DNA of 64,000 nucleotides from Cladochytrium replicatum (lineage: Eukaryota; Chytridiomycota; Chytridiomycetes; Cladochytriales; Cladochytriaceae): assembly GCA_025526935.1 (NCBI GenBank), contig JAHLKD010000074.1:238247-302246 (forward strand). The letters run 5' to 3'. The translations under genes and the position numbers were made by a program. The notes beneath the pieces were generated by a model. It saw only the letters and a list, made by a program, of their open reading frames with translations, was not told the origin of the DNA and ran no database searches. Shown here in pieces: positions 1 to 62,056 of this stretch (within the stretch, counting starts at the first letter, position 1; each line of letters starts with the position of its first letter).

Positions 1-205
1 CAAAGGCAAATTAGCAGGAATGGGAATTCTTGTGAGAATTACAGACTTCAAAGGAGCAAAAGAAAAACCAGGAGTTTGGGCAAACTGTTCACAAACAGAG
101 AGAAGAACCTGCATAGCATCCAAAGTAAGTGCAAACAAGCCAAATCATCTGCAAATAAAGATGAATCGTATCGTGGTTTGGCAGTATGAAAGAGTGTTCG
201 GGGAG
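1..205 (-). mobile_element. LINE family B ORF2 fragment (reverse transcriptase part)
   Basis: The first ~205 bases repeat, with small changes, the sequence at about 58,069-58,268 inside the family B ORF2. The shared part lies just after the FADD catalytic motif of the reverse transcriptase on the minus strand. It continues off the left edge of the window, so the size of this copy is unknown. Opposite-strand reading frames here are shadows. Confidence 0.75.
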
Positions 206-395
206 ACTATTTTATTGAACTTCATATTATGTTATTTTCCAACCAATACATATTGCCCACTGCTGCAAAATCCAAATACGAGTGTAAAAAAAATTCCACA
301 TTATTATTATTTTTTTGAAACTTCTTAAAATGAATTTATTGCCAGCCAATACATATCACCCACTGGTGCAAAATCCAAAATAAAAAGTTAAAAAA
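206..395 (-). repeat. two stacked LINE family A 3' tails
   Basis: Two copies of the family A 3' end lie in tandem, at about 210-287 and 310-379. Each, read on the minus strand, runs from the GGATTTTGCA block through the TATTGGTTGG-like block to an A-rich end. The same tail follows the family A ORF2 stop at 62,435. They are short, 5'-truncated insertions placed one beside the other. Confidence 0.65.
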
Positions 396-407
396 AATAT
401 TGGACAA

Positions 408-490
408 CTGGCTTTTGCTCAGTTGGCAGTAGCATTTGGCAGTAATTGGGAAATTATCAATAGGTCCCCAGTTCAGATCTGGGAAGCCCG
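408..490 (+). pseudogene. decayed tRNA-Tyr (GTA), intron position kept
   Basis: The segment has the same 83-nt layout as the better copy at 25,375. It has an A box (TTGCTCAGTTGG), a T arm with a perfect CCCAG/CTGGG stem, a GTA anticodon and a 10-nt intron-like insert after position 37. Damage: U33 is replaced by A, the acceptor has a mismatch at pair 2-71, and the anticodon stem has a mismatch at 27-43. No T-run terminator follows. A non-functional copy is the simplest reading. Confidence 0.6.
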
Positions 491-7442: not shown

Positions 7443-9349
7443 CTACCAAATATAAGCAGCCTCTATCAATGTTACTAGAAATAGGATTCTGTCTACCTGG
7501 ACACTTTCCCAACTCATTGACAGTACTTCAGCTATCTCTACCCAAAAATTATGCACCTTTGCAAAATCCTCACTAACATCACTTTTTGAATCTAGGGAAT
7601 CATTTTTGAACGGCTCTTCAGCACTCAATTGATGCAACCAGTCATGATGGCACATCAAAGCATTTATTGTTCTTGGAGCAAGGTGATTGCGAGTTGCAGG
7701 TACCAAATCAACCCTGGCTAAAAACATTGGCTTCCCATCAGAATCAATAGCGCGGAGTACCTGATTGCCAAGATAGCGAGCCAGTTCATATCTTCTTGCC
7801 AGATGAAAACGGATCTGATGGCTCTCAAGCGTTCAGAGTCCGTTTTTTTCTGTCTATCACCGGAAGGTCCGCTGGAATTGTGTCGACGCTCTGGTGTGTT
7901 TCCTAAAACATAGACACCACTGTTCTTGATTTTCCGTGACTTACACGATTCCTCCCAGACTTTCTGCACTAGGGTGATCTGATCCCTTCCTACATGTTTC
8001 TTCCAAGCCTTTGAAAATCAATTATATTGATCCTTAAAAACAAGGATCGAGTACTGTAGCAACTGCTAAACACAGGCTCTTAGCGATTGAGTATATATTC
8101 TCAGCTTGTTTAGTGCATTTCGAAATGCTTTGCTGAAAGTTTCATCCAATTCTGCCTCCTCTAGGTCCTCCAGTTGAACAATAAGATTGTTGTAAAATGG
8201 AATAACAAGCAGAAGTGTTGGATATCTAGACTCCTCGATTGCCTTTGATATAACCTCGAAAACACTCAAACCATCCCGGATCTTCTGTCGGACCTCCCAT
8301 TGCTTTGCGTTTATTGACCAATCTTTCAAAGAATCTTCAGCATATTGTGTCCATTGCCTCCCGTAGCTGTAAGGCTCGTTTGACCATATAGAACGTGCTA
8401 TTCCAGCGAGTTGTCACATCGATAATTGGTAATAGAGGAACCAGTTTCACAAATCGGTACAAATCAATAAATGAACTTCGTTGTTTTGGGGAAGACCGGA
8501 TTCCTCTGACCAGCCGTCGAAGAAGGTTTATGACATTAACGCCGGAGTAATCGACATGTGCGACTGTGTCCCCTGCAGGCCCGAATGCATCGATAAAACG
8601 CTTTTCTGCAAGATTGATAATGTGTGCCATACACTGCATGTGTTGAGTTTCTGCAGACCACGCAATATCCCTATCTTCCAATAGTGTCTCCAGCTTAGCA
8701 CTCATGGTAAAGTTGTTTGAACTTTGTCGGTTGTAATGCACAATAAGCGTTCACCACCTGATAGCATGCCAAATTCATCCAGACACTTGACAAGCTGATT
8801 AACCATGGCGAGGCCTTCATGCTTTCCAACCATCGGAATCATCTGCAGCAGCAAGTCCCACGGCTCCCATTCTTTCATGATGAAGTGGGCAGTAATTCCA
8901 AGAAAAGAAATCTGGTTCTTTGATGTCCAACAGTCAGTTGTTATTGATACTTTTGAAGGCGAACCAACAATCAGACCTTTAAAGAGCTCCTTCTGCCTAT
9001 CGTAAAGATCCATCTCATTTTGCCTCACTGAGTTTGCCGTCTTTGGTGCATAGTTTGGCTGAAAAGTCTTCGGCATGCTGACAAAGAACTCGTTTTCCAC
9101 AACAGTAAAAGCCTGATTGTCTGCAGCAATCCAGTCCTAAATTGACCGCCACGCTACATCTGGATTGAACACAAAGTCTTGCTCCTTCTCCAGCAAGCCA
9201 AAATTCAATGTCTGTTCTCCCATGGGTCCGGTGTCCAACAGTCCAAGTGACCTGGCAAAACTTCCATGGTGGTTTCTGAGATGCCGGAGAAAGTGTTTTG
9301 TTGATCCTGTCTTGTCGACCTTCTGGCTCCACTTGCATTTCGCAGCCAA
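7443..9349 (-). pseudogene. hAT-family DNA transposase, decayed
   Basis: Minus-strand frames in order read as a hAT transposase: a BED-finger-like N-terminus (FLRHLRNHH, ~9,280), the catalytic-core blocks ITTDCWTS (~8,950) and TRWNSTFYM (~8,400), a helical region (8,066-8,329), and the C-terminal dimerisation block ending NHLAPRTINALMCHHDWL (~7,650). The core is spread over several frames with stops (breaks near 9,120, 8,740, 8,335 and 7,970); some could be introns, but several junctions lack splice sites. A second, shorter copy of its middle lies at 29,030-29,475. Terminal inverted repeats were not located, so the element ends are unknown. Confidence 0.8.
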
Positions 9350-20128: not shown

Positions 20129-20522
20129 ATAGATAGATATGAGGAATGGTAGTCAGCTTACTGTGGAGACAGATAGTAATCACTTACTACCTGACTATAA
20201 GATGGTTAACAACTGCCACTTACCATATGCCTACTTATTTATTAAGAAACATAACGCAAATTGAATATAAATTTTGGTATGTAGTTCATGTTGTTTGCAA
20301 AAAGCTTTGGATTAGCTTCTATGGCTGGACTTGTAGGAGGAAAGATATGATGCTATGTTGTTTGGCTTTAGTCAAAAAACTCTGAATTAACAGCAACTCG
20401 TTAAATTTCCTTTCACACACCACTCTCAAGTCTGTTAAGCATACTACGTGCTACTCTCAGTCCGGGAATCTGGGTCTTCTCTGTGACAGGGAGAGATACT
20501 AGCCACTATACTAAGATGTAAT
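20129..20522. other. intergenic, no gene supported
   Basis: About 390 AT-rich bases between the FUZ stop and the LINE debris. A short GATA repeat lies just after the stop. Nothing else is recognisable. Confidence 0.45.
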
Positions 20523-21528
20523 CTCTCTCTCTCTCTCTCTCTCATGCCGCCTCCCAGCGCGACACATGCTGCGCCCCCCGGCTCTCCTTCGACAATTGTC
20601 CTTGTTTCTGCCTGTGCTCGCTCCCGTGCTTCTGCCTCACAACCTTGCGCCCCTCAGGAAATTATTCCTGACTCTCAGCCCAACAACTTTGCTGGAGAAA
20701 ATTTTCTGTGGGCAGATGAAGTGAATTCTCCTTCGGAATCACCTGACCAAGTATCATCAACTCCAGAACATGCTCCACTTCGTGGAAGATCCCTGCAAGT
20801 GCTGTTGATCTTCAAATGGATGATGCTGTCAAAATGCCAACTACTGTTGCTGATGCTGATCCAAAAGGGAAACGTCGAGCTTCAAAATTGCGTCCGACTT
20901 GACAACCTGCTTCTCCTGCCAGGGTTGAGACCAATGCCTCTGCAGCTGATCATGCTACCTCTTCCTCGACCACTCCTTGTGACTGATTCTTGGATACTCT
21001 GCTTTTTCTGGCCCCTGCTCAAACTTCTGGATCTCATCCATTGGTGATCTCTGCATTGGCTCGTGCAGAACAATTTCTCCCAGTGTTGGAACCAGAAACC
21101 GAAGCTGCCTTTCTGCCCCATTGACAATTGCTGTTGTTCTGATGGTTGAAACTATCAACTCCCCTCCTGGTGCTGTCTCTGCCGTGCCTTCCTACACTCA
21201 AGTTGCGAGTGCCACCTACCCCTGCTACTGGCAATCCTGGGCCTTTCCAGACTGCCAAATTTGCCTCTCGTGCAAAAAATGCTATTGTTTGTATTGAAGC
21301 TGCCAATGTTGATGCTCAGCCTGCCCTTTATCGCTCAGTGGTTGCTGGAGTGGACCCCCTATCTCGCAGATCACTACAGCCACCCAGATTGGTGATTGAT
21401 TACCCAGCCGAGTCACCAATTTTGATCAATCCTCCTCAGCCTGTTCGTGATTGTGCTGCTGGTTTTGTTACTGTGAGGTTTAAAGAAATTAGTCGTCAGC
21501 CACTTGACCACCTCCGCACTCTGATTAA
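20523..21528 (+). mobile_element. LINE family B 5' end with ORF1 fragment
   Basis: A (TC)n tract at 20,523-20,543 runs straight into ATG 20,544. The frame that follows matches the family B ORF1 at 60,328-61,693: shared phrases are APQEIIPDSQP, NFAGENF, AKFASRA, YRSVVAGVDPLS and VRDCAAGF. ORF1 is broken by frame changes in its middle (about 20,780-21,150). Homology ends at RTLIK near 21,526, where sequence of a family A element in the opposite direction begins. Both partners lack their 3' parts at this junction. Confidence 0.8.
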
Positions 21529-23209
21529 GAGAGGATTCACGACAAAGGAGCTGTGCTAAAGGATTGATGAAAACTGAGTACAAGAACGGAGACAAAACAG
21601 AACCTTGAAAAAGACCTCGTGGAAGCAAAAACAAATCAGAAGCACGATTCGCTATAACAACCTGAGAAGAACAACGATCAAACATACTCATCAAAACAGA
21701 GATCAAACGGTTTGGAATTCTGGGAAATTGACGAAGACGTTCCCACAAAAGTGGCCTATGCTTGAATATCTAAGAAAGTAACACAATAAGGCAGAGCAGT
21801 GCAGGAAGCCCGTCGAAGGGTAGCATCTAATGCAAAAACACACTCAACACCTGAACGATTGGCGTGGAAACCAGCTTGGGCGGGATCAAGTTTACCAGCA
21901 TAAGCTACAAGCATAGGAAGCAGGGTACGCTCAAAGATTTTTCTATCAACATTGGTTAAAGTAATGGGGCGGTACTGACTAATATCACCAATGGAACCCT
22001 TATTCTTCCAAACAGGTAACAACAAGCCAGCATTCCAGGCAGAGGGCGACAAAACTGAACGGAAAATAGCGTTTGAAAGTTGAACAAAAAGAATAGCAAC
22101 ATCAGAAGCTAACGGCTTAAATAACTCAGCTGGAATATGGTTTGGGCCAGGAGCAGAGTTGTTTGGGGAAGAACGAATAGCACAAACAAAGTCACTAACA
22201 CTAACTAACACAGAATCATTCAGCACATGTAGACAAACGTGTTCTGCACTGGCAGAGGATTGTGAAACTGAGTCTGATAAACGGAGGCAAAGTGATTGCG
22301 AGAATGAGATCAAGAGGCAGGATCAGACAATAAACCACTTGCAGCTGAGCGCCGTTGATGACACCTACGCGCTGTGGAAAGAACTTTGCTAACCTCAGTT
22401 AAAGAACTAGGAGAAGAACTAAACATATTGTCGCCAGAAGCCTCTCGAGATCGCTGAGAAAGAGACCAAGTACGAAAAGCTTTGACACGCTCACGCGATA
22501 GCCGGTCATGCTCCAAGCGGCAATACTCAACTAAAACAGGATCAGGATCATCACAGGAAGAAACAGCTAAAAAGTGCTTATGAGCAAGTAAGTAGCTCCA
22601 TCGCAAGGCCACTAAATGCGGCGGCAACAATGGCAGGGCAGGGCAACGGCGAACTAAACTGGGGGTCCAATGACACAAGCAGCACACGAAGTAACAAAGG
22701 ACAAAATAATATCCAATGCAGAGTCAATACATCCCTGTGCAACATCCACAGACATTTGGGCAAAGGCGGGAGCTTCTAAAATTGGACTGAGCGCATCATT
22801 GACATCAGCAAGGGTGGGATCAAAAAACAAATGTCCCACATCCTCCATTGCTTGAAAGACAGCAGGTTCATGCAACAGATGAGCAGCCCAGCGCTTGTGG
22901 GGGGAGCAGCAGAGGGAGCGCTGACATTGGGAGGAGCAAAAGAAAAAACAGCTGTAACCGGAAAATGGTCAGAAGCCCAAGGCATAAACTCGCCGTCGGC
23001 TAGACGACTATGAACTATGTAAGAAATAGGATCACATTGAAGCAGAGGATTGACAAACAACAAATCTATAATGGAGTCACCATTGCGAGAAGAAAATGTG
23101 GGGTTATGACAGGAAGGGTGCTTAACTAGAGAGAAACTAGCGGCAGAAATAAATTGCTCAAACAACCTACCCCTATGATTTGAAGAATGATCACCAGTGC
23201 TAAAAAACG

Positions 23210-23651
23210 TGTTGAGTGTTGTTTCGTTCATAAAAGTTTTCCTTCTTTGTTTTTACTTTCAAAAAAAAGAAAAATTTCGACTGAGGATAACAACAGGATT
23301 ACTGTTGATCCTCAGAATCGAACTTGCGACATGATGTTGAATGGCTTGTGGTTTAACCCACGACGCTAGCTTTGTTGTTTTACAAAATTTTTATTTCTGT
23401 TTGTATTTCGGCTTCATGTTCTTCGACGAAAACTTCAAAAACCCCCTTTCCAGAAAATTCCGGATCACCAGCTAACTTGAAGGGGACTTACCAAAGGAGG
23501 AAGGAGAGCGCCGCTGCTGACGTGGCAAGGACAAATTAAGGGAGGCTTTGTTGGGAATGGGAGAACCTATAAAAGGTGTGAGTCTTAAGCTTCCAATACA
23601 TTGAACAAGTACCTCTTATCTGATCTTACCTGCCTACGACGAAATTCTACA
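23210..23651 (+). mobile_element. solo LTR, 442 bp, with 5-bp target duplication
   Basis: The insert interrupts the endonuclease of the family A LINE right after its GDFNAR motif. It starts TGTTG and ends CTACA, so both ends have the TG...CA of LTRs, and it is flanked by AAACG at 23,205-23,209 and 23,652-23,656, a perfect 5-bp duplication. A CCTATAAAAGG box at 23,566-23,576 lies ~78 nt before the end, as expected for a U3/R boundary on the plus strand. No internal retrotransposon genes remain, so it is a solo LTR left by recombination. It carries no resemblance to the copia-like fragment at 27-29 kb that I could see. Confidence 0.82.
23566..23576 (+). promoter_or_regulatory. TATA box of the solo LTR
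   Basis: CCTATAAAAGG is a near-ideal TATA box inside the LTR, 75 nt or so before its 3' end. It could still fire transcription antisense to the LINE. Confidence 0.6.
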
Positions 23652-24086
23652 AAACGGGCATTGAAATCGCCCAAGAAAAGAACAGGGCACGGAGACGACA
23701 GGACATGTTGAGGAAGTGAAGCAATAAACTCTTCAAGGAAGGGGTCCTGAGCAATACCACACAGAGGCAAATAAAGCCCTCCAACCAAAAGCCCATGAAA
23801 TGCAAACCATAGAGAGGTGCCACCAGAACTAGAAACGAGACGGAAATCAGAAGCTCTACAAAGACTGCGATTGATCAAGACTCCCACACCAGCCCGTCGT
23901 GTACCCGATGACCCAGGAGAAAAACGAGTGTCAAAAATCAAATCTGGGGAAGGCAGCGGGTCTAAAGGAAAAAGGTGTGTTTCAGTCAGGAGCAGAAAAA
24001 CAATGTGATTTGCGCGCATAAAACAAAACAGTGAATCAAGAACTCCAAAGCTCAAATTTCGACAATTGAAGGTACCAACTCGAACA

Positions 24087-25107
24087 CTAATCATTGACGA
24101 AGATGGGTTGAGCGAGGCTGACGCGCAATCCCGCGGGCACTGTCCAGCACAGTTTCCTAAGCATCCATGGGGAGCTGACCACGGACATACAGGAAAATAG
24201 CAGGATCAGTAACTGAACTGAGGATATGTGCATATCTCTTGTGGCCAACTTCCCTGACTGCAGCCTCCCGCTGCTCCAAAGGCAGAGTAGAGGCTCGGCG
24301 AAGAAAGTCAGGGTTTGATTCGTCAAGCCAAGCCGCTGTCTCATGATGTCCTTGATGTACACAGTGGTCAAATTATCCACATGAGCCTGAAGATCAGCAG
24401 GTGGGGAGACCGACAGCGGAGAGGTCGGTGGATAGAATACGACAGGCTGAGGACCACGAAGGCTGACATTTGAAGTGGGGTCACGACCAGCAAGGGCAGT
24501 CCTGACAGCTTCTGAACAAGATTCAGCACTCAGTGTGGGGAGCCTCTCAAGCACACGTGCACGGGCATTGGCAGCAGCAGCAGCATAAGTGCGTGGACCA
24601 CGAGGTCCACGTGGGGCAGGTCGACTAGACGGGGGGCGAGGGCCAGGGACACCAGAGTTCCCAAGATTGTCCCGAATTGGAGGATTACCATGCAGTTGTC
24701 TAGGGGGAAGGCACACAGGCACAGCCACATCATCAGGGCGGGAGACAGGGGCAACCGGAGGTGAAGGCGAAGGCAGCGGCCTCCCAAAGCGACCCACCAG
24801 ATCCTCGGCCATATCATGACAAACACTAAAAAATTCAGCAGGAGTGTCCCTCGGCAAGCATAGGATCCAGCATCGCCAACGGATCAAAGGTTGCACAAAC
24901 AGATCGCATCTGAGTGAGAACGACAAGGAGATCGGCCAGAGATGCAACAGTTGAGGGAGCAGCCACAGCAGCAAGAACCTGGACACCAGAGGAGGCACGG
25001 GGGCGCGAACGGGCCTCAAAAATCACGGTGCCACCAGAAAGTCCATCAGGGGGCACAGCGGGGGGTGCGGCGGGCGGCGCGGCATGCGGAGCGCTGGGAG
25101 GCGGCAT
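24087..25107 (-). pseudogene. LINE family A ORF1 with one frameshift
   Basis: ATG 25,107 lies ten bases after the CT repeat. The frame begins [16 protein letters not shown], rich in Pro/Ala, and is carried on in another frame (24,087-25,019) through a Gly/Pro/Arg-rich nucleic-acid-binding type segment and a Pro/Ser-rich part, to the stop that overlaps ORF2. A frame change in the 24,840-25,015 overlap splits it. LINE ORF1 proteins bind element RNA; no RRM or zinc knuckle is obvious here. Confidence 0.7.
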
Positions 25108-25112
25108 TGATT

Positions 25113-25229
<117 letters not shown>

Positions 25230-25230
25230 A

Positions 25231-25370
25231 GGTTTTTTTTTTTTTGAACTTCATAATATGTATTTATTGTCCAACCAATACATATCACCCGCTGGTGCAA
25301 AATCCAAATACAAGTGTAAAAATACACGTAATTGGCAGCACATTGGGGGCCGTGCGAACTGTAGGAAACT
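25231..25370 (-). mobile_element. short 5'-truncated LINE family A tail next to tRNA-Tyr
   Basis: On the minus strand this is the family A 3' UTR (compare 62,290-62,415) ending in a 13-base A run at 25,233-25,245, with AATAAA just before it. Homology to the full tail ends near 25,368, only about six bases before the tRNA gene. So it is a tail-only insertion directly upstream of, and opposite to, the tRNA. Confidence 0.75.
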
Positions 25371-25374
25371 ACAA

Positions 25375-25457
25375 CCGGCTTTAGCTCAGTTGGCAGTAGC
25401 GATTGGCTGTAATGTGAAAGTCACCAATAGGTCCCCAGTTCAAATCTGGGAAGCCGG
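25375..25457 (+). tRNA. tRNA-Tyr (GTA) with 10-nt intron
   Basis: A full cloverleaf can be drawn: acceptor CCGGCTT/AAGCCGG (7/7 pairs), U8-A9, D arm GCTC...TAGC (3 pairs plus a C-U mismatch), anticodon stem ATTGG/CCAAT (5/5), loop CUGUAA..A with anticodon GTA at 25,409-25,411, variable AGGTC, T arm CCCAG/CTGGG with loop TTCAAAT, discriminator A. The intron TGTGAAAGTC (25,413-25,422) sits after position 37, the canonical place, and tRNA-Tyr genes in eukaryotes usually have one. Weak points: the D stem has three pairs and no strong T-run terminator follows closely. Confidence 0.8.
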
Positions 25458-25558
25458 AAAAATTTAGGTGGAGGATTTAGATATCCTAGAGGGATTGTAT
25501 TGATATGAATATGTCTTTGAGAGTCTACTTTGCAGCCGTGCGTAACACACTCGGCGTA

Positions 25559-27318: not shown

Positions 27319-29030
27319 ATGCCTAAGAACAACAGCTGCGACGGAAAACCAAAGCCTTTCGCTTGGCAAACACTTGGGGAGTTCGATAAATACGTGAAGA
27401 TCGTTCAGAATTATGCGAACTCGAAAGGAGAAGCTGGAACTTTGCTCACAAAGTCACCCTACACAAAGTCGGAAGACTTTGTGAAAGAAGAGGAGCCTGA
27501 ACAGTCTGAACGACCGTCTGCACTCGAAGAATACGACACAACAAATGATTTGATTATGCTGTTAAAGAGTACGTCGTAGCGTTGAAAGAATACAACGCAA
27601 TTGTGAACGACAATCATCAACGATTCCAATCATATCGCGCTGAATTACAGATGTATGAATGATCTCAAGGACACAACAGCATTGCAAACAGTTGTCTTGC
27701 CGTTTGTTTTCCAGAGGTCGACATCAGTTTAGTGCAAAAGCATCAGAATGCCGTTGATCGACTTGCTGCTTTACGCGGAATTTACGCAGCAAAACGACAA
27801 AAGACTTTTGAGAGACGCCATTGGGAAGACTGTTTCAAAGCTCTAGCTTGCTCCAACGGTGAAGATGCACTTAAAGTCAAATGATTCATTGCTGAGCTGA
27901 GTCAACTCACTGAGGAAAAGCTTTCAACCCAACCGGCTGAAGCTGTTATTCAGGAACTTCTCACTCGAGTTTGCTCAAAGATCAGTGAACCTGATATCAA
28001 TCTGCAATCTTTTTCGATTTTAATCAGAGACATCTCAATGAATACTTTCACAAAGTATGAACCTGATCTACTTGATGATGAGGATGATTCTGGTCAGAAG
28101 ATACAATCAGAACACCATTACCTGAGAACCATGCAGAACTTACTTGCTGAGATGAGAGAAATCATTCAAATGGATGTAACTTGCTATTACACTCCTTCAG
28201 ATTCACCTCAAATCAAAGGCAAAGCCATGCGAGCAAAGACCAAAAGGCTACCAAAAGCTCATGCAGCTCATGAGGTTTGTGTTTTACATCCCAACTCTTC
28301 TCATTCTTCCGCAGAGTGTAAACAACTCAAACATTTGATTGAGAAACATGCTTCCTCACATAAAGGAAATGCCAACAGTAAGACTGCAAACAATCGTGCC
28401 GCATGAAAATCTAAGGATGCGAAGAACAACAAATTCTCTTGCGATTTCTGTGGCAAATCTGGACACAACCAGATTTTCTGCAGGAAACGCAAACTAGCCA
28501 AAAGTTTGAATAATTAGGAATGGAAACAGATAAAAGCATCTCGTGCTTCCTCTTCTACATTCCAGAGCATAGATATCGATTCTCAGGAATCAGAACCTTC
28601 CAGCAAGGTAGAATCAATCAAATCCTTCTCTTCAATCTTCAAAGCTAATAATATTGTGGATTTTACACATCCCTCTATTATCACAGCATTGAAGAGTACC
28701 AACTGCAATCTAAACGTAAATGCCAAACCTCTCGGTTTGATTGACTCTGGTGCTACTGCTTGGATGACTCCAGAAAGACATGCATTCAAGAATTTATTTT
28801 GCTTTAATGATGCACAAGATGTTTACTTGGCAGACAATCATCCCATTCCTATTAAAGGCAATGGAGATATTGCACTTGTTTTGTCAAATGGTTCAAAAAA
28901 CACATTCAAAACGCACTTTTTGTTCCTGATTTAGAGGATACACTTATATCCGTCTATAGCATCATAGGGGATGAAGGTGATATAGTCAGTTTTACCAAAG
29001 ACAAGGTCTATTTGTCAAACAAAGGAGCAT
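27319..29030 (+). mobile_element. Ty1/copia-like gag-protease remnant
   Basis: A run of plus-strand frames interrupted by stops (27,576, 27,660, 27,882, 28,404, 28,515). It ends with a CCHC zinc knuckle CDFCGKSGHNQIFC (28,440-28,482) and an aspartic protease active site LIDSGATAWM (28,737-28,766) followed by DVYLADNHPIPIKGNGDIAL, the order gag-knuckle-protease of Ty1/copia elements. Integrase, reverse transcriptase and RNase H are absent: the sequence switches at ~29,030 to a hAT fragment. LTRs and a primer binding site were not recognised. Confidence 0.8.
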
Positions 29031-29475
29031 GCTGAAGACTTTTCAGCCAAACTATACACCAAAGACAGCAAAAGCAGTGACGCAAAATGAGATGGATCTT
29101 TACGATAGGCAGAAGGAGCTCGTTAAAGGTCTGATTGTTGGTTGTTGGTTCGCCTTCAAAAGTATCAATAACAGCTGACTGTTGGACATCAAAGAGCCAG
29201 ATTTCTTTTCTTGAAATTACTGCCCACTTCATCACGAAAGAATGGGAGCCGCAGGACTTGCTGCTGCAGATGATTCCTATGGTTGGAAAGCATGAAGGCG
29301 TCGCCATGGTTAATCAGCTTGTCAAGTGTCTGGATGAATTTGGCATGCTATTGGGTGAACGCTTATTGTGCATTACAACCGACAAACAGTTCAAACAACT
29401 TTACAATGAGTGCTAAGCTGGAGACTCTTTTGGAAGATAGGGATATTGCATGGTCTGCAGAAACTCAACACATGC
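29030..29475 (+). mobile_element. hAT transposase fragment (second copy)
   Basis: Matches the middle of the minus-strand hAT copy at 8,640-9,100 (shared phrases KTFQPNY, QNEMDLYDRQKEL, DCWTSKSQISFL, IPMVGKHEG, KCLDEFGML, AKLETLLEDRDIAW). It has an insertion/frame change near 29,150 and ends abruptly at AETQHM, where host sequence of the CBS gene resumes. Confidence 0.8.
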
Positions 29476-30067
29476 GGTGTCTGATCTCGCTGACCGTCAT
29501 CGCGATGAGTTCACAAGCACAGGCGATCCACGGATTTTGGCTAATGATGTTCCACAATGTTACAGGTGTCGCGATCCTCGAACGAGGTGTGTTGGTTGGA
29601 AACCTTTCCGCCTCCGATGTTCTGGTGTGCCTTGGACTGATTTTTGCGTTGGCTGGTTTGAAATAACAATACTTTATTAGCAAATCTCGACGCACAATCT
29701 AACGTCATTACTGGGTCCCATCACTTCCTTTGTGACCGAGAGCGACCACGCCTGGTGTGGTGATCACAATCAAACTTGTGATTCCAAGCACGCCAAGAAA
29801 CACGTTCACTTCAGTGGTTTCGGCTCTATTGTGAGTACCTCCCATCTTTGGGAATTTGTCCTATTGTTCTGATCTTTCTTTCGTTTTGAAAGCGTCGTCC
29901 ACCAGTGATGGTCACACCTGATCGAGAAACTCGCGATGCACCATGTCCATCGTGCTTATGCCGTGGAAGATGAAGGGCGTCCGACGGGAGTGGTGACGAC
30001 GCTGAAGAGGGTTATGGAAATGCTTGGAGGATATCCAAATGCATCTGCTTCGACCCAGGCGAAGTGA
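29476..30067 (+). pseudogene. CBS-domain protein gene, 3' part (two CBS motifs)
   Basis: Downstream of the hAT fragment, frames encode FHNVTGVAILERGVLVGNLS (~29,550-29,620) and, from about 29,910, IEKLAMHHVHRAYAVEDEG followed by GVVTTLKRVMEML to a TGA at 30,065-30,067. Both are CBS motifs (HR.y.V.d..g...GVvt). They would be CBS3 and CBS4 of the gene begun at 25.6 kb. Introns lie between, with GTGAG at ~29,830 and an acceptor at ~29,893. Confidence 0.5.
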
Positions 30068-36403: not shown

Positions 36404-38856
36404 ACATATCTGATCTGCTTTAGGCTGCGGTTCTTGGTCTTGACAAGTCGCTCACTAATTTTCTGATCCGCACCAGCAACGGCGTGGATTGGAGCCTGAT
36501 TTCTTGGGTCACATTACATAGATGTTAATTTCGTTCCGTATTTTCGGTGCAGAGTTTAGTTAGATTTATAAAAGTTGGTGCAAGCCGGCACTGTTAATTC
36601 AAGACAATGAAATTGAAAGAACAACAATGCTTGGTTCAATCGCTATCTCAGGGCAATTAATTTGCCAACCGCTCAGCACTGCAGCGGCAAGACACTAGAA
36701 ACGGGACTCCGATCATGGCAAGCATTTTGATCATCGAAAGTGTATGGAGACAGCTGAAACAGCTGATGATGGATCAAACCGCTCCAGCAGAGTAAGGAAA
36801 GGAGCAGCAAAATCAACCCATAAATATTAGCAGTTTAACTCTGAGGGGGAGATGACCATTGCAGACATGAGAGCGATAACATCTCCGGCCTGCCCAAACT
36901 AGACCTGCATGACTGTCAAAGTGTCTCATGGCATCAAAATTGCCCTGTAGCGTGGCCCTGTCCATTTTCATGATGTCAATTGTTGCTCTGCCAACATCGG
37001 CTGCCAATGTTTCAGGCTGCAATGAACGACGGTGGTTTATGACATGCAGCAATGTTCCGCATATTCCAGAGATGAAAAATATCCGGATGTTTGGTATGAA
37101 GGACACTATTTTCCAGCCGGGATCGAGGAGACCAAGTATGAGACTGACGTCCAGAACAAGCTTATCGCTGTCCAAGCCTGACACCACCAAAGGGTTCTAC
37201 AGCTGCTTGTTTTCCCTCCACTTCACTTGCGTGTCCACAGTTGGACAAGGAGACTGTCATTGAAGAGACGGGTGATGTTGTGATGAAACTAAAAATGATA
37301 GGTGGGGTGTTGCAGTTACTGTTGCATTGTTTCTGTTCTGAATAGGTGTAGAAAACAGCTGATTCGGTCAAAATATCTCATTTCGCTATCTCAATGAAAA
37401 GGTGGATACAGATCAACAATCCTCACGTTGATCTTATTCATGAATAAAACCAGATCCAATCATTTTTCTTGGGGGACATGAAAAAGTCATGATCATTTAT
37501 CAATTGGGTCATATCTTGATCCCCTGATTGATGTTTTCGGAGGGCACGGAAACCTTCTTTTTCTTCTATCTTTCCAACTAGTGGCAACTTATCTCTTATC
37601 CCCATCTTTTCCTATTTTCCTTTTACAATTTATTAACGGCTAGCGGAGTCTTATTTCGCTGCAATGTTTGATAGGAACATGTTATTTTTGCTCCCTTCCA
37701 CAAAATTGGTCAGTGATTTTGGCTTTAAAAAGGGGCAATCCGCCTCGAAAACAAACCAGACAGCTTATCACAACAATTCTCTTTTTCTCTTGGAAGTACT
37801 GTCTCCTGACAGTTTCGAAAACACCGAAAATCCGGATTTTTGAACTCTCAATACCACATTCCTTCCTTGGTGCTTCACCACATTAGCAACGATGTGGATT
37901 TGGAGGCACGTGAAAATAAATAATGGAGATTGCGAGTGAGGATTGACAAAAGAGATACTGCGGTAGCATTTTGGAGGCAACAATACTTCCTTTCATGGAT
38001 TATCGAAAAATTTTCTGAGCACCTTTTGGGACGGGCGTGGCGCACATTCTCTGTACATTGATGTATTACTCGATACACCGTCTGGTCACCTTCTTAAAAG
38101 CACCCCGTGTCAGCCCCATGCGTCGACCCTCCCAACCAGCACCAAAGCACCAGCTAGGGCGGTCTTCAACAGAGGCACTCTAACGCAGATCCACCCGCGA
38201 AGGCAGATCCGCACAGAGTCATCCTCCCACTCTCCCACTCGGGCAGCGCATGTCCAGCTCATCCTCCACGGTAACAAAGGTGTCTTTTTAGGAAAAGACT
38301 GTAAAGGTAACCGACTAAAACACACGATCCTGTGTAAGTACGGTCATGAAGTTCAACTGGACTCAGGGGAGGGGTTTATATAGGGCAGCGACGCGAAGAA
38401 GGAAGAAGAGAAGAAAAGTGAAAAGAGAAAAATGGGAAGAAAATTGACTGCGGACTACAATTTTCTTTTTACCAAGTGAGATGAAACAGCGATCTGGTGT
38501 TTCAAGATCCAAATAAGTTTGTACTTCGCCAGACAGTACTATAAAGCCGACACGAATCCCTTTCCCGTATGTGAGAATTTGAGTGATGGCAAGCCCACGA
38601 CAAGGACGTCTATTGTCCTTGACGCGCTCGCACCAGGTTGCTGCACTGACCCTCGCGAGACAGCATCTAGAAAATATTTTTTAATTTTGTTCACACTCCC
38701 GCACCAGATTGCTGGACTGAGCCGTCGCAAGGCAGCATCTTTAAACATTTTTTTGATTTTATTTTGTTTTCTAGCGACGTCTTCATTTTCTCCACATTGG
38801 GACTCACCGATTTGACAGCTCGGTTCCAATACGTGAGAGAACACTTCCATTTCATT
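36404..38856. other. 2.4 kb without a supported gene
   Basis: Overlapping frames on both strands at 36,813-37,263 are the only candidates (a secretory-like start on plus, a hydrophobic frame on minus); neither has family signal. The rest is AT-rich. The last ~500 bp contain the VID27 promoter, with a CT/AG-rich purine stretch at 38,395-38,440 and a near-perfect internal repeat of ~60 bp at 38,625-38,750 (GCACCAGRTTGCTG ... AGCATCTWRAA). Confidence 0.4.
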
Positions 38857-41235
38857 ATGTTTCTTCTCAAAGCTCTCGGTGATGTAGTCTGGGGTCGCTC
38901 GGAGGATTCTTACCTCCAGCTCACCAGCGGCCAGCTGATCTACCACAACACCCGCACAAAAACCGCCTCCAAAACCCAGTGCGTCTTCAAAGATGCCACA
39001 GCGACCATCCGCAAGACCACCACTCCATTCAACTACCAGTTTATCATCTCTCGCGTGTTCGAGGAGGGCGAGGAGGAGCTCGAGGAAACGAGCGACGAGC
39101 CCGAAGAGCACGAACGTACCTTCCTTATCGACGAGGTCATCGGACTGCGGAAAACCGGCAAGAGCGGCGGGCCGTACTCGATCACATGGGCAGATCCCGA
39201 CGATGACATGTGCTCGTACGAGTATGCGATCGACGACGGTGTGAATGAGGTGACCGTGGCGGCGTTCGAGCAGATGGTGTACCATTGCATGTTTGAGCGG
39301 AGATACAAGAAGGCATACTCGGAGGCTCAGGACGAGGAGATTGAAAAGTATGTTGCGAGAGTGAAGGCTATTGCAAGGGAGGAGAAGGAAGCGAGTCTTG
39401 CGCCTAAAACCCCGACGAAGGTGGGGACGTCAAAGCTTGTTGGAACACCAGAGACTCCTGCAACACCCTTTGGTCGTCGGCCAATGGATATGTCTGCTGC
39501 AGCGACGCCGACACCAGCCAGGCCATCCAAGCTTGGAGGAAAGGCAGCACCAGAAACACCTGTTGCTGGAATGGCCGGCGCTGCCAGTGGCAAGTCCCCG
39601 AAACTAGCGACCGCAGTTCAGGTCCCGAAAGGAGAGATCCTTTCTTTGGTTCCCTCGCAGCTGTTTGTTTACAACATTGGGAAGATGCAGCACGAGTTCA
39701 GAGGAAACGTGGAGGCGAGCTTGATCGAAACAGAGGAGTACAAGTTTGTGCTCTATGTACGTGATGAGAATCCCAAGCTGTGCTGTGTTGTCGACGACCA
39801 GATGAACGGGCTGTTCTTCAACGAGACACTGAGCTTCCAGTGGAATCAGATGGATGAGAGTGAGGGGTTCTTGTTCTCATGGTCGCTACGGTTCCCCGAT
39901 GTTGGAATGTTTGATCGATTCCGCGACACTTTTGTGAGATGTGTGTATGAAGCCAAGAACCAGGAAGAATTTGAAAAGATGGCACAGTCGGAGAAGAACT
40001 ACATCATCAATGCTTTCCAGGAGGATGTCGAAATGAGTGATGCCGGAGATTGGGTTGAGGATGAAGAGGAGGAGGAAGAGGAAGAAGACGAAGAGGAAGA
40101 CGGGGAGGAAGCTGATGACGACGATGAGGAAGAGGAGCAGGAGGCGTACGAGGCGGGCGAGAAGAACAGTCATCTTGTGGTCGGATACAAGCATGAGCGC
40201 TCATTTGTTTCACGGGGAAACAAAATTGGTGTATTCAAGTACACGGACGACGATCAGCTCGCCCACCACACTACCATCAACGGCATCAAAGATATGAAGG
40301 GAGCAACGTTTTCACCGCGAAAACTGATGCTGCACGAGCAAGATTCATCAATGTTGCTTATGGCACCCAACAATCCCCACAGCATTTTCCGAATGGATCT
40401 CGAAGCCGGGAAAGTGGTTGAGGAATGGAACGTGGACGACATCATGACCGTGGACGAGATTCTTCCCGAGAACAAGTACGCCCAGATGACTCCGCAGAAG
40501 ACTCTTATCGGAATCAACCACAACGCAATCTTCCGCATCGACCCTCGTCTCTCTGGGAAGAAGCGCGTCGACTCTGAGAGCAAGCAGTACGTGACCAAGA
40601 ACCAGTTCAGTTGCGCTGCGACGACAGGCAAAGGCGAGCTTGCTGTTGCAAGCGAGAAGGGCGACATTAGACTGTTCAACAAACTCGGTATCCGTGCCAA
40701 GACCGCCTTGCCTGGACTCGGCGATCCCATCATCGGAATAGATACAACGGAGAACGGGCGGTGGATCGTTGCAACTTGCAAAACTTACATCCTTCTTGTT
40801 AACACCGAGATCCCGAGCGACGAGGGCGGTGTGACCGGAAGCGGACCGACAGGGTTCCAAAAGCCCATGGGCGAGAAGAAGCCCCACCCGAAACGACTGC
40901 AGCTCAAACCCGAGCACGTCGCGTGGATGGGCACGGAAGTAAACTTCACGCCTGCGCATTTCAACGCTGGCGAAGGGGACGAGAAGAGCATTGTGACGTC
41001 GACGGGGCCGTTTGTGATTACATGGAACTTTAGGAGGGTGAAGCAAGGGAAGCTGTGGGATTATCAGATCAAAAAGTATGCGGACAATGTGGTTGCGGAC
41101 AACTTCAAGTTTGGAGCGGACAGGAACATTATTGTGACTTTGCCTGGGAACGTGGAGATGGTGAGCAAGACCAGGTTGCAGACTCCGACAAAGATGCTGA
41201 AGAGCAGGAATGGCGTAGTGAACTCGCCTTATTGA
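38857..41235 (+). CDS. VID27: VID27 protein
   Basis: Homologue of yeast Vid27, linked to vacuolar import and degradation. Single exon, 792 residues from ATG 38,857 (MFLLKALGDVVWG); upstream in-frame codons lack family character. Order: an N-terminal PH-like part (ISRVFEEGEEELEE, GGPYSITWADP), a Pro/Ala/Thr linker, a second PH-like region (LYVRDENPKLCCVVDD), a long Asp/Glu run (about residues 400-430), and a C-terminal beta-propeller (HLVVGYKHERSFVSRG, FRIDPRL, LAVASEKGDIRLF, GRWIVATCKTYILLV, FVITWNFRRVKQG). The family length is ~780. Long opposite-strand frames here are shadows. Confidence 0.94.
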   Translation: MFLLKALGDVVWGRSEDSYLQLTSGQLIYHNTRTKTASKTQCVFKDATATIRKTTTPFNYQFIISRVFEEGEEELEETSDEPEEHERTFLIDEVIGLRKTGKSGGPYSITWADPDDDMCSYEYAIDDGVNEVTVAAFEQMVYHCMFERRYKKAYSEAQDEEIEKYVARVKAIAREEKEASLAPKTPTKVGTSKLVGTPETPATPFGRRPMDMSAAATPTPARPSKLGGKAAPETPVAGMAGAASGKSPKLATAVQVPKGEILSLVPSQLFVYNIGKMQHEFRGNVEASLIETEEYKFVLYVRDENPKLCCVVDDQMNGLFFNETLSFQWNQMDESEGFLFSWSLRFPDVGMFDRFRDTFVRCVYEAKNQEEFEKMAQSEKNYIINAFQEDVEMSDAGDWVEDEEEEEEEEDEEEDGEEADDDDEEEEQEAYEAGEKNSHLVVGYKHERSFVSRGNKIGVFKYTDDDQLAHHTTINGIKDMKGATFSPRKLMLHEQDSSMLLMAPNNPHSIFRMDLEAGKVVEEWNVDDIMTVDEILPENKYAQMTPQKTLIGINHNAIFRIDPRLSGKKRVDSESKQYVTKNQFSCAATTGKGELAVASEKGDIRLFNKLGIRAKTALPGLGDPIIGIDTTENGRWIVATCKTYILLVNTEIPSDEGGVTGSGPTGFQKPMGEKKPHPKRLQLKPEHVAWMGTEVNFTPAHFNAGEGDEKSIVTSTGPFVITWNFRRVKQGKLWDYQIKKYADNVVADNFKFGADRNIIVTLPGNVEMVSKTRLQTPTKMLKSRNGVVNSPY

Positions 41236-55809: not shown

Positions 55810-55955
55810 TTAGACAAGTTCTTCCATTCCACAATTATAAACCTGGTCAAACCTCTCCACGAGACCACGACCGTGACCACCCCCCTCGCAGTTGAGTTGC
55901 AACGAATCGATCACTGCATAAGTGCCCTCGGATTCCAAATGCATCCAGTTCTACG
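55810..55955 (-). pseudogene. C-terminal scrap of a host gene cut by a LINE
   Basis: The minus strand reads ESEGTYAVIDSLQLNCEGGG, then HGRGLVERFDQVYNCGMEEL to a TAA at 55,812-55,810. Its GC-rich codon style resembles host genes, not LINEs. The frame begins abruptly where LINE family A sequence starts (~55,956). It may be the end of a host exon truncated by the insertion. Family not recognised. Confidence 0.3.
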
Positions 55956-56603
55956 AGGGCGACAAACCTGAACTAAAAATAGCATTTGGAAGTTGAACAA
56001 AACGAATAGCAACGTCAGAAACTAACAGCTTAAACAACTCCGCTGGAATATGGTTTGGGCTAGGAGCAGAGTTGTTTGGGGAAGAACGAATAGCACAAAC
56101 AAAGTCACTAACACTAACTGACAAAGAACCATTCAGCGCATGTAGATGAATGTGTTCTGCAGTGGCGGAGGATCGTGCAAACTGAGTCTGGTAAACGGAA
56201 GCAAAGTGATTGCGATAATGAGATAAAGAGGCAGGATCAAACAATAAACCACTTGCAGCTGAATGCTGTTGACGACACCTACGCGCGATGGAAAGAACTT
56301 TGCTAACCTCAGTTAAAGAACTAGGAGAAGAACTAAACATATTGTAGCCAGAAGCCTCTTGAGCTCGCTGAGAAAGAGACCAAGTACGAAAAGCTTTACA
56401 CACTCACACAATAGCCGGTCACACTCCAATCGACAATACTCAACTAAAACAGGATCAGGATCATCACAGGAAGAAACAGCTAAAAAGTGCTTATGAGCAG
56501 CAGGTTCACGCAACAGATGAGCAGCCCAATGGTTGTGGGGAGGAGCAGCAGAGGGTGCCGGCATTGGGAGGAGCAAAAGAAAAAACAGCAGTAACCAGGA
56601 AAT
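55956..56603 (-). mobile_element. LINE family A ORF2 fragment with internal deletion
   Basis: Corresponds to about 22,045-22,990 of the other family A copy (shared IRSSPNNSAP, NHIPAELFK, MFSSSPSSLTEVSKVLS). A block of roughly 275 bp present there (22,587-22,862) is missing here at ~56,498; the break lies in short AGCA microhomology and lacks splice sites. At ~56,600 it changes to family B 3' sequence. Confidence 0.75.
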
Positions 56604-56860
56604 GCATAGCAAAAAACAACACCCAAAGTGCCGTACAAGATGGTCATGGACCAGCACAGAGGCAAGCATCTTGAGCAGAAGGAAAAGCAATATTTTTTTT
56701 AACAATATTATTTATTTTGCACATACAATGCATAACAAAAAACAACACCCAAAGTGCCTTACAAGATGGTCATGGACCAGCACATAGGGAAGCGCACAGC
56801 ATAAGGAAAAACAACAAAGCAAAACAGAGAATGTAAACTCAAACCTGTGGCTACCCATCA
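56604..56860 (-). mobile_element. LINE family B 3' UTR, partly duplicated
   Basis: Minus-strand 3' end of family B: after ORF2 the sequence runs to GCAAAATAAATAATATTG and an A run at about 56,695-56,702, so AATAAA and poly(A) are both present. A 59-bp part of the same UTR (56,729-56,787) is repeated at 56,604-56,662, beyond the poly(A). That indicates two nested or successive insertions. Confidence 0.75.
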
Positions 56861-59800
56861 GATACTGCTAAGGTGCCAAAAAAACAGGTGAGTAATAAGT
56901 AATGAAAATAGAAAACGTTTAAGATCCACAAATGCTGGGCCAAAGAGGGAGTCTGGAGGAGAAACTTCTAATGGCAGACCCATACAGTGAAGCCAAATCT
57001 TATGGAGACAAAGAAAAACAAGATACCACCGTGCAAGATTCGCTGGGTTGACAATGCGAAGTGGACGAAGGCTATCAATTGCAACATCAAGTGGAAGTTG
57101 TAAAACAGGAACAGGAACAGGAGGTAACAATAGATCAAGACGCAAACATTCTGAAACATGAGATCTAGAGAGAGTGGCAGAGCCACAGCGACAACACTGC
57201 TTGTGGGGGTGATAAAACAAACTCCCAGACAACACTGCAGAAGACTCAAGATTGATGAAATAGGGAAGCATGATGAGCAATTGCCAGCGCATGAGGGTGG
57301 GCAGATGCAAGGGGAGCAAAGCTAGCAGCTATAGAACCATAGGCAGATGAGGCTAAAACAAACGTCCAACACAATACTGCAGTAGCCTCAAGATTGACGA
57401 AATAGGGAAGCATGGAGGAGCAATTGCTAGTGCATGAGGGTGGGCAGATGCAAGGGGAGCAAAGCTAGCAGCTATAGAACCATAAGGCTAATTGGTGAAA
57501 GTGATTTGCGATAACATCAGAAGGTTTGGGAACTACAACATTTGCAGCCGGGAAGAGGAAGTGATTGTTGAAAGGAGCAGGAGAACAACGAAAGTGCTTT
57601 CCCTGGTGAAGAAAGAATGACAACATAGAGTGAACCATATCAGGGGCATCATCATCCAACCAACGTTGAAACATCTGAAACTGCAGATACTGAAGCCGAA
57701 ACTGAAGGTCAGGAAACTTAAAAAACAGCAAAACCCCAGCAATTGAAGTGGTAAATGAAAGGTGAAGAAATCAACACAAACTTTGGTGAATAAAAGTCCG
57801 AACTGGTTTGCAAACAGCAACAGAGGGAAGAATAAAATATAAACCTAATTCAAGCGTAGGCCGAATAAAAGACAAAAACAAATGACGAACCACAGCCAGA
57901 GAATGAGAACCAAACATCCTTGAAAAAGAATGCAAAGCAAAAGAAGCTGCACGCGCTTTGGCAAGTCGATGGGAAATAGTCAATGGAACATGGAGTCCAG
58001 TATCTCCAAAAAAGCAACCCTGATAAGGAAATGAAGGCTTGACAGGCAGAGTTTGACCATGAAGAAGCAAAGGCGAATTAGCAGGAATGGGAATTCTTGT
58101 GAGAATCACAGACTTCAAAGGAGCAAAAGAAAAACCACAAGCTTGGGCAAACTGGTCACAACCAGAGAGAAGAACCTGCATAGCATCCAAAGTAGTGCAA
58201 ACAAGGCCAAATCATCTGCAAATAAAAAAGAATTATATAGTGGTTTGGCAGGATGAAAGAGTGTTATAGGTGGGACAAATGGTCGGAGGAGCCCTGGTAG
58301 AGGATCAAGAAAAGTATATAGAGAAGTGGACTGAGAACAGAACTTGACACAAACCTCTAAACAAATCAAAAGCATCAATTTGCAACAACCACTCTGGAAG
58401 AACAAAAATCAAACAGAGACTTCAAAACAAAAACAAATGGCAACAGTACTTCCCTAGAAAGAAGCTCAGCCCAAAGAATTGCACGATTTGTGGTGTCATA
58501 AGCTGCTTGAATATCTAAAAAACCAGCAACCCAAGGAACCTTGGCATTACACGCATGGGAGATGTATGCCTGAAGACAAAAAGCACATTCCATTCCTGAG
58601 CGGTGTGACTGAAATCCCGCTTGGGCAGCATCAAGTGGGCGTTGAGACGTGATAGCAGAATAAAGATGTGGCAACAAAGCTCACTCAAAAATTTTTCAGG
58701 CAACACACGAAAGAGTAATGGGGCGATAATTAGTAATGTCACCAAGTGTACCACGTTGCTTCCAAACTGGGTGTAAAAGCCCAAGATTCCATGAAGTAGG
58801 TGTAAGACTACTGCAAAAAATGGACTGAGAAAGCTGCAAGAACAATGGAGCAAGAATAGCTGAAATTGGGCGATAAAGTTCTCCAGGCAGACGATCATGA
58901 CCCGGGGCAGACTCCAAAGGGCAGTCCCTAATAGCTAGAACAAAAGCTTCAACATCCAATGGCAGCTGAAAATCACACAGAACAATTGAAGGTGAAACCG
59001 GGTCAGCAGCCTGAGCATTGTAGACACTAGCAAAATGATCAGCATATTTGGCTAAAGACTGAGGATCAAAATCTAAACCATTAGCTGAAGTACGAAAGTT
59101 AGCACAGCGCTGACCATGAGACACATGTTTCAGAAGAGAAGGCACTGATGAAGAACTAGGGTCATCAAAAAAATTTTCTTTTGTCTTTCGCCTGTGTGAT
59201 CTTTTGAATGCTTTGTGACTATCACGTTAGTGAGTTCTTAGGAAAGGAAGAAGAGGGTTAGAAGAAATGTTGTGCAAGAGGGAATAATAGTCACGGAATC
59301 CTGAACGAGCCTTACTACGCAACAAAGCAATCTCAGGGGGCAGAGGTTCTACGACGAGGTGTTGGTGGTCCCAATGTCAGAACTGCTGCTGCCTCAACAA
59401 AATCAACTATAATTTGAAATGCGGAATCAATTGCTCCCTGGGCCACTGCACGAGAAAGAGAAGTCCCCACAGGGACCTGAAGTGGTTCCAATACTGCTGT
59501 TAGCGCCTCTGATGTTGGAGGAAGCAGAATCTTAGCAGTTTCTCTGTGCAGCTTACGAAAAACTTCATCCGTTAACAATCGGAGATTCCAAGAAGGTAGA
59601 GGAGGAGGCACAGTGGCCCGAGGATCTGGGCCAGCTAAAGAAAATGAACAGGTCACTGCAAAATGGTCTGAAGGATGGGGAGCCATAGACTGGGGTTGAT
59701 CATGCACTAAATAAGAGGAAGCTGTCACATAAGTAGAAGCAAAAAACAAATCAATAATTGAACTCCCTAAGTGGGAACGAAAAGTTGGGCGTCGAGCTGA

Positions 59801-60328
59801 AGAAGAAGCTGGGACAACCAATGAAAGTTAGTGGGCTGTAAAAAAAGGAAGAAGTGCTCTGGCACGGGCATTAGTTACACGATCACCGGCGCTCTGAGTT
59901 CTAAAATTGAAGTAACCCATCAAAACTACTGGTGTATCCGAATTCGAAACAAATTGAGGAAAATCAGATAATGCACCCAAACAGTCTTCTGCAGTCCAAA
60001 GTGGGGGAAAATAAAATCCACCAATCACGACCTGACGAAACCTAAACCACAAACCAAACCTAGAAGGAATTGATGCATTCAACCTAAATTAATGAGTACT
60101 ACAACGATGAAGGTCATTAAGAAGAGCAACACCAGATCCCAAAGGATCGTCTGGTGGAGCACAAGAATCAAACAACAAATATTCTGAAGAAACACTGTCT
60201 AAAGTTAACTGATGAGTTTTTGTTAAAACTAAAAAATCAAGATGATAAGTAACAAGCGAAGCAAGTAAGTCTGAAAAATCCAGAGGCAAACCTCTACAGT
60301 TGAAGGTTCCAGCACAAAAAGTCCACAT
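56858..60328 (-). pseudogene. LINE family B ORF2 (endonuclease + reverse transcriptase), broken
   Basis: ORF2 starts at ATG 60,328 (CAGTFNCRGLPL) with AP-endonuclease motifs (LTKTH, PVVLMGYFN, SIIDLFF, HPSDHFAVTC), a reverse transcriptase (58,115-58,900: PGHDRLPGELY, ITNYRPITLSCVA, LPFVFVLKSL, FADDLALF) and a C-terminal CCHC motif CCRCGSATLSRSHVSEC (~57,160-57,210). Frame changes at ~60,085, 59,825, 59,150, 58,690, 58,390, 58,190, 57,760 and the tandem duplication at 57,231-57,487 break it. The catalytic FADD is kept. Not functional as read. Confidence 0.85.
57231..57487. repeat. ~143-bp tandem duplication inside LINE family B ORF2
   Basis: The block from CTCAAGATTGAYGAAATAGG to GCAGCTATAGAACCATA occurs twice, about 143 bp apart, with a few substitutions. 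It disrupts ORF2 between the reverse transcriptase and the CCHC motif. Confidence 0.85.
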
Positions 60329-61693: not shown

Positions 61694-61700
61694 TAATTTT

Positions 61701-61728
61701 GTGAGAGAGAGAGAGAGTGAGAGAGTGA

Positions 61729-61825
<97 letters not shown>

Positions 61826-61920
61826 TGAGAGTGAGAGAGCGAGAGAGTGAGAGAGTGAGAGAGAGAGAGTGAGAGAGAGAGAGAGTGAGAGAGTGAGAGA
61901 GTGAGAGTGAGAGAGAGAGA
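61701..61920. repeat. compound (GA)n/(GT)n microsatellite in front of LINE family B ORF1
   Basis: About 220 bp of GA repeat with a (GT)n core at 61,791-61,822 and many GAGT interruptions. Like the tract at 25,117, it joins a LINE tail's poly(A) on one side and an ORF1 start on the other. Confidence 0.95.
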
Positions 61921-62056
61921 GTTTTTTTTTTTTTTTGAACTTCATAATATGTGTTATTGTCCAACCAATACATATCACCTGCGGGTGCAAAATCCAAATA
62001 CAAGTGTAAAAATACACGTAAATTGGCAGGCACATGGGGAGCCGTGCGAGCCGTGG
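61921..62056 (-). mobile_element. 5'-truncated LINE family A tail
   Basis: Minus-strand copy of the family A 3' UTR with a 14-15-base A run at 61,922-61,936. It ends at the GCCGTGCGAGC block near 62,050 and abuts a family B tail. Same structure as 25,231-25,370. Confidence 0.75.

Follow-up and report, generated by a model that had tools for sequence, protein, structure and literature searches.

LINE, SINE and ORF1-only elements stacked antisense upstream of tRNA genes in the fungus Cladochytrium replicatum

Among described systems, the dictyostelid TRE5 and NLTR-A elements are the closest to the one reported here. TRE5 elements lie 40–54 bp upstream of tRNA genes in opposite orientation, with the 5' end always towards the tRNA; they form TRE-TRE tandems, have an ORF1-only partner (TRE5-A.2), contact TFIIIB through ORF1 and also insert at 5S genes (PMC5911963, PMC5006619, PMC5391098). 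NLTR-A of Dictyostelium purpureum, a non-LTR element with RNase H downstream of its RT, inserts 2–6 bp upstream of the tRNA coding sequence (PMC5911963, PMC5006619), and Ty3 of budding yeast, an LTR element with an integrase that is found in both orientations, targets tRNA genes at their Pol III start site (PMC5911963, PMC7175516), which lies ~10 bp upstream of the mature tRNA (PMC5911963). The non-LTR elements Zorro1–3 are fungal, from Candida albicans; Zorro1 and Zorro2 are described as subtelomeric and Zorro3 as lying at poly(A) sites (PMC7175516). Within the literature searched (partly excerpts, with subscription papers and preprints outside the search), the tRNA-associated elements of fungi are LTR elements, no fungal LINE at tRNA genes was found, and social amoebae are the sole hosts for which non-LTR elements with this habit are described.

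The elements of C. replicatum resemble TRE5-A.1/TRE5-A.2 of Dictyostelium discoideum in combining an APE+RT LINE, upstream of tRNA genes with its 5' end facing them, with non-interrupting tandems at one tRNA and an ORF1-only non-autonomous partner (PMC5911963, PMC5391098). Compared with TRE5, they sit closer (median 9 nt, among the 41 loci with an edge within 20 bp), are absent from 5S genes (0 of 8 loci, which share flanks), have a fungal host and include a SINE partner; we do not class them as TRE5 because neither the distance nor the use of 5S genes agrees. Their position is like that of NLTR-A, from which they differ in that Pfam finds no RNase H in the ORF2 of the better preserved family, and like that of Ty3, unlike which they are LINEs with a poly(A)-type tail in a single orientation; unlike the Zorro elements, they lie at tRNA starts. 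Host, position, SINE and an apparent sparing of 5S and U6 genes set them apart from TRE5 and NLTR-A. The system amounts to a fungal LINE group that targets tRNA starts, is accompanied by a SINE and an ORF1-only element, and occupies almost all of the tRNA genes examined.

The analysis began from one 64,000-nt stretch of the genome (C74:238247-302246; "the window"), which belongs to an assembly of 50.5 Mb in 198 contigs. Its relevant features are as follows, where A and B denote two related LINE families and "target" the tRNA sequence that an element abuts.

1–198, minus strand: LINE B ORF2 fragment, 92% identical to positions 3837–3639 of the B reference; outermost stack unit in the window's first 500 bases.
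206–300, minus strand: 5'-truncated LINE A 3' tail (the tail of the first-pass annotation); 210–290 aligned at 87% to tail A.
301–402, minus strand: another LINE A 3' tail unit, the innermost one in the stack; 307–394 aligned at 85% to tail A.
408–490, plus strand: decayed tRNA-Tyr copy, target; 85% identical to the sound copy, with no ARAGORN or Rfam tRNA match.
20,451–20,520, minus strand: decayed tRNA-Asp-like sequence, read by eye; Rfam tRNA 13.5 bits (gathering score 29), E 2.4.
20,522–21,528, plus strand: LINE B-like 5' part, its 5' end facing the decayed tRNA at 20,451–20,520; 20,568–21,528 is 84% identical to positions 180–1176 of the B reference.
21,529–25,232, minus strand: 5' and middle part of LINE A, its ORFs decayed, with (GA)n at the 5' end; an endonuclease trace in 23,585–24,205 stays under the Pfam cut-off (21.5 against 24.5 bits).
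25,234–25,370, minus strand: LINE A tail unit adjoining tRNA-Tyr.
25,375–25,458, plus strand: tRNA-Tyr(GTA) gene with a 10-nt intron, target; ARAGORN -i, Rfam 50.6 bits.
55,955–56,604, minus strand: LINE A fragments (88–92%), outer part of a stack.
56,601–56,690, minus strand: LINE B tail piece (88%).
56,693–61,921, minus strand: near-complete LINE B with ORF1, a decayed APE/RT ORF2 and a (GA)n 5' UTR; 93–94% DNA identity to B, ORF2 pieces 61–96% identical in protein.
61,922–62,055, minus strand: LINE A tail unit (94%) stacked on the LINE B 5' end.
62,059–62,269, minus strand: LINE B 3' tail unit (96%).
62,276–64,000, minus strand: 3' half of LINE A including the tail; the stack passes beyond the contig end, so its tRNA is out of view.

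The first-pass annotation had drawn attention to two places at which a minus-strand family A tail lies just before a tRNA-Tyr, and both pairs are present, at 408 and at 25,375. Several details changed on measurement. The supposed single tail at 206–402 does belong to family A but consists of two successive tails (210–290 and 307–394, respectively 87% and 85% identical to the tail at 25,234–25,370), with the LINE B fragment at 1–198 behind them. The gaps, given as 28 and 6 nt, came to 13 nt at the first pair and 4 nt at the second, where the value depends on the chosen tail end; aligning independently to a different copy of LINE A returned the original 6. The copy at 408–490 is Tyr-like as proposed, but decayed, and was rejected both by intron-aware ARAGORN and by Rfam; its counterpart at 25,375 is a sound gene ending at 25,458. 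Neither intron-free ARAGORN nor Rfam at E≤1, each run over the whole window, returned a tRNA, and Rfam runs on short stretches recovered the 25,375 copy. From the window's arrangement a minus-strand tRNA could also be predicted in front of the plus-strand LINE 5' end at 20,522, and the decayed tRNA-Asp-like sequence at 20,451–20,520 weakly bears this out.

LINE B was defined from a full-length copy on another contig (C48), which lies antisense ~11 nt upstream of a tRNA-Tyr and whose 5' end, as used in the reference, is a cut point chosen on that copy. Its ORF2 of 1082 aa carries both an endonuclease and an RT domain in one frame (Exo_endo_phos 7.1e-15 and RVT_1 1.9e-22, Pfam), the arrangement of an APE-type LINE. 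Against PDB, the RT matched the RNA-directed DNA polymerase 8c8j (3.4e-15), L1 ORF2p (3.5e-15) and R2 (1.6e-14), and the endonuclease part gave nothing useful. The window contains parts of LINE A, with ORF2 pieces ~34–55% and ORF1 33% identical to LINE B. As expected of LINEs, inner truncation points vary and 3' tails are preserved. Element C (1263 bp) has a single 330-aa ORF that is 32% identical over 141 aa to LINE B ORF1 and contains no Pfam domain, and its tail is B-like (84%); with an ORF1-like frame, its partner's tail and no EN/RT, it corresponds to an ORF1-only LINE derivative of the HAL1 or TRE5-A.2 type. The SINE (~297 bp) has a tail resembling that of LINE A and a head in which A-box- and B-box-like words can be read by eye, while Rfam calls no tRNA in the head. 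A SINE headed by the window's own tRNA-Tyr was considered and rejected, because that tRNA faces the opposite way and has its own unrelated flanks; the real SINE was located elsewhere and inserts antisense. Genome-wide counts with short patterns, mismatches allowed, gave 337 matches for tail A, 320 for tail B, 117 for the SINE and 40 for C, and none for any of the four reversed patterns. Judged from their sequences, the elements look recently active: 18 of 47 scored ORF2 matches cover residues 1–1059 or more of LINE B ORF2 without a stop (scoring covered 43 of 1696 first-look candidates), and nine SINE copies are 97–100% identical to the copy on C48. On contig C43 (C43:330473-331410) four SINE heads follow one another on the same strand at ~304-base spacing, a row that probably arose either by four insertions into a single site or by expansion in tandem.

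Sixty tRNA loci of 13 kinds were then read, comprising 50 of the 62 listed by an Rfam tRNA search (the best 63 of 2278 candidates) and 10 tRNA-Tyr loci. LINE, SINE or ORF1-only sequence lies antisense within 500 bp upstream of 58 of these 60 tRNAs with the full library (53 in a first count, before element C, found in the gaps, joined the library), within 200 bp of 57 and within 50 bp of 50; in none of the 60 is the nearest upstream piece in sense orientation, and the element's 5' end points towards the 5' end of the tRNA. The inner edge falls within 20 bp of the tRNA in 41–43 loci depending on alignment settings (41 with a longer BLAST word), and the median distance for the 41 is 9 nt, at about the Pol III start; at three loci (L009, L012 and L014) the inner edges rest on library cut points taken from those same loci. 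This is the fixed position and orientation by which tRNA-targeting non-LTR elements are recognised. The innermost unit at the 50 loci within 50 bp is a LINE A piece in 24, LINE B in 12, the SINE in 9 and element C in 5.

Exceptions were few. A tRNA-Cys (L052) and a tRNA-Tyr (L015) have no element within 500 bp upstream, and at eight further loci the nearest aligned element is 66–286 bp off. At two of these eight (L101 and L108) the distance becomes 8 nt once the (GA)n tract of the LINE 5' end is counted, and at L049 a tRNA-Thr intervenes, ~8 nt from the LINE. Twelve of the listed tRNAs lie outside the 60, one of them a tRNA-Ile directly behind a tRNA-Tyr. Among the matches listed, at least 5 of the other eleven have antisense upstream units: a unit ~9 nt from the tRNA on C54 (L005), a SINE on C102, element C at C57:109872, a B tail at C57:169538 and an A tail on C41, 6.4 kb upstream. 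The tRNA-Ile shares its locus (L016, C1:752259-752416) with a seemingly 3'-shortened tRNA-Tyr on the same strand, almost without a gap, and the LINE there precedes only the tRNA-Tyr, the first of the two.

The downstream side, 5S and U6 loci, and a genome-wide tail count served as controls. Downstream of the tRNAs, none of the 60 loci has an element within 50 bp, one within 200 bp and six within 500 bp, with or without C in the library; for edges within 20 bp, 41 of 60 upstream against none of 60 downstream gives p=1.8e-17. Tail A was also counted at tRNA loci: its 19-nt core lies upstream in the window's orientation at 10 of 39 tRNA loci (flanks ~1.5 kb; L015, a shorter locus, was left out), far above a chance expectation of ~0.005 per tRNA, whereas none of the 39 has it upstream in the reverse orientation or in either orientation downstream. 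The proposal that family A, like TRE elements, aims at the upstream side of tRNA genes is strongly supported and can be widened to four element types.

The reverse test started from 37 loci fetched by tails (7 besides the window's own, plus 30 by exact core), with the inner edge visible in 12 rows at 10 distinct places. Stacks at 8 of these 10 end at a tRNA (Leu at L002, Trp at L003, Arg at L005, Val at L007, 35 bp on, and Lys at L008) or at a tRNA relic recognised by BLAST matches alone (L021, L029 and L048, which are not independent cases because their flanks are related), and the stacks at L004 and L023 have no recognisable tRNA at their inner end. ARAGORN found no tRNA within 1.5 kb of the 30 exact-core loci. 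At 25 of them the inner edge is outside the view; the five rows with a visible edge represent four places, three of which end at decayed tRNA-like sequence, L023 being the fourth.

Units stack head to tail, the 5' end of an outer unit often being closely followed by the 3' end of the next inner one. Gaps at 85 stack junctions were ≤5 nt in 31, 6–15 nt in 24, 16–30 nt in 12, 31–60 nt in 9 and >60 nt in 9, and often consist of extra T's. At tRNA loci, where two units of one family could be compared, the inner was less diverged than the outer in 15 of 19 pairs (p=0.019); for adjacent units regardless of family this was so in 24 of 37 (p=0.10). Adding the tail loci gives 37 of 47 same-family and 61 of 91 adjacent pairs, counts that are inflated because the tail loci overlap one another.

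Position, strand, inner (5') truncation, stacking and absence at the 5S and U6 loci read can all be seen directly in the assembly, and very likely reflect integration of LINE A, LINE B, element C and the SINE by target-primed reverse transcription (TPRT) where transcription of tRNA genes begins. The two LINEs would constitute a related APE/RT non-LTR set, whose 3' tails C and the SINE share or resemble. Insertion would take place with the element's 5' end towards the tRNA, ~9 nt upstream of its mature sequence, and the preinitiation complex that Pol III forms on tRNA-type promoters (TFIIIC/TFIIIB) would recruit the ORF1/ORF2 machinery, the tether probably being the ORF1 protein by analogy with TRE5-A. 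Each new copy would enter between the tRNA and the previous copy, so that the stack would grow outward and roughly record the order of insertion, and the internal promoter of the tRNA would keep both the gene and the target site intact. More tentatively, and as a possibility to which we give somewhat less than even credence, a LINE-SINE community may occupy nearly every host tRNA gene, use tRNA-type promoters only and leave time-ordered stacks as a history of its invasion.

How far the targeting is confined to tRNA-type promoters bears on one alternative, that any open Pol III promoter is targeted through TFIIIB and the 5S and U6 genes are merely under-sampled. We consider this rather unlikely, given that no element lies upstream of any of 8 5S loci or 2 good U6 loci with the full library, against 58 of 60 tRNA loci (Fisher p=1.7e-10). 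The sample of other Pol III genes is indeed small, with just two good U6 loci and eight related 5S loci that amount to fewer than eight independent cases because flanks are common to them, one of them with just 235 bp upstream; and TRE5-A, whose ORF1 interacts with TFIIIB proteins, also inserts at 5S genes (PMC5911963). Should the sparing of U6 and 5S hold, TFIIIB alone would be insufficient, and a tRNA-type-only specificity would point to a tether beyond it, for example TFIIIC bound to the A box, or the polymerase as it initiates.

A third U6 match (L090, C66:265138-265226) proved to be a U6 snRNA fragment fused to a LINE A 3' part within a stack; at 34.5 bits the U6 match falls short of the family cut-off, and the same chimera occurs in L060. 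It resembles the U6-L1 chimeras of mammals and is a sign of template switching during TPRT. At one 5S locus (L087, C1:73624-73730) the 5S rRNA gene breaks into a telomere-like repeat of CTAACCCTAA-type units, so that some 5S copies may be terminal on their chromosomes or may have travelled with the ends.

It is distinctly less probable that the endonuclease reads DNA sequence at the tRNA start and not a bound transcription complex. The tight edge distances would suit such a reading, as would a 7-nt match at L105 between the far side of the unit and the tRNA start, but the nucleotides between element and tRNA vary from gene to gene and the first tRNA bases vary among isoacceptors. An 8-nt match at L012 may be due to chance because the sequence on its left belongs to another tRNA. 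At that locus, the ~37 bases between LINE B and element C include 14 bases that resemble the beginning of tRNA-Ile, which looks as though an insertion entered, or carried along, a tRNA-Ile gene. As a point against integration by TPRT as proposed above, target-site duplications showed no excess: the mean longest match was 4.04 against 4.06 in shuffled pairs, and 2 of 26 units had matches of ≥6 nt.

Loose insertion, with copies surviving only beside tRNA genes as selection clears the rest of a gene-dense genome, appears highly improbable; safe-haven selection is plausible in compact genomes (PMC5006619), but would not alone confine the edges to ~9 nt, to a single side and to a single strand, and would allow downstream and 5S/U6 copies, of which there are few or none.

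Duplication of whole segments leaves different traces from those seen. The genome search returned 10 tRNA-Tyr matches, 7 of which intron-aware ARAGORN accepted; their introns mostly differ (one form is common to L009 and L016), as do their flanks, which identifies them as a gene family and not one duplicated segment. Isoacceptors carry different elements with different truncation points. Near-identical (>99%) downstream flanks occur in two pairs among the 60 loci (L094/L096 and L109/L110), and six other pairs show weaker likeness (74–88% over 63–230 bp). The other possibility raised by the first-pass annotation, that tRNA and tail form one composite repeat spread by segmental duplication, describes the two near-identical pairs and perhaps the related flanks of the decayed ends L021, L029 and L048, but as a general cause it is refuted by the spread over 13 kinds of tRNA and four types of element, by the many points of truncation and by the lack of near-identical downstream flanks at the other loci, and we regard it as next to impossible. 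Upstream-only edges, varied truncation, few shared flanks and stacking together argue for targeted insertion at tRNA starts over segment duplication.

Targeted insertion of this kind would mean that the aiming of LINEs at tRNA starts spans two distant groups, social amoebae and a fungus, which raises the question of convergence and offers a second system for how an endonuclease is aimed. The ordered stacks may permit relative dating of insertions, and a SINE and an ORF1-only element at the same site would help to separate the aiming roles of RNA tail, ORF1 and ORF2.

Two Pfam domains that we take to be fungal markers, chitin synthase 1 (PF01644, 22 matches) and Zn2Cys6 (PF00172, 31 matches), are found in the genome and gave no match in 14 control genomes, all prokaryotic. 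The window also contains an inverted repeat pair of ~92% identity (8628–9079 and 29,026–29,483) with no match in the element library, and a complete VID27 gene (38,671–41,235), beside which a U3 snoRNA-like match lies on the minus strand at 38,104–38,347 (50 bits, below the family cut-off).
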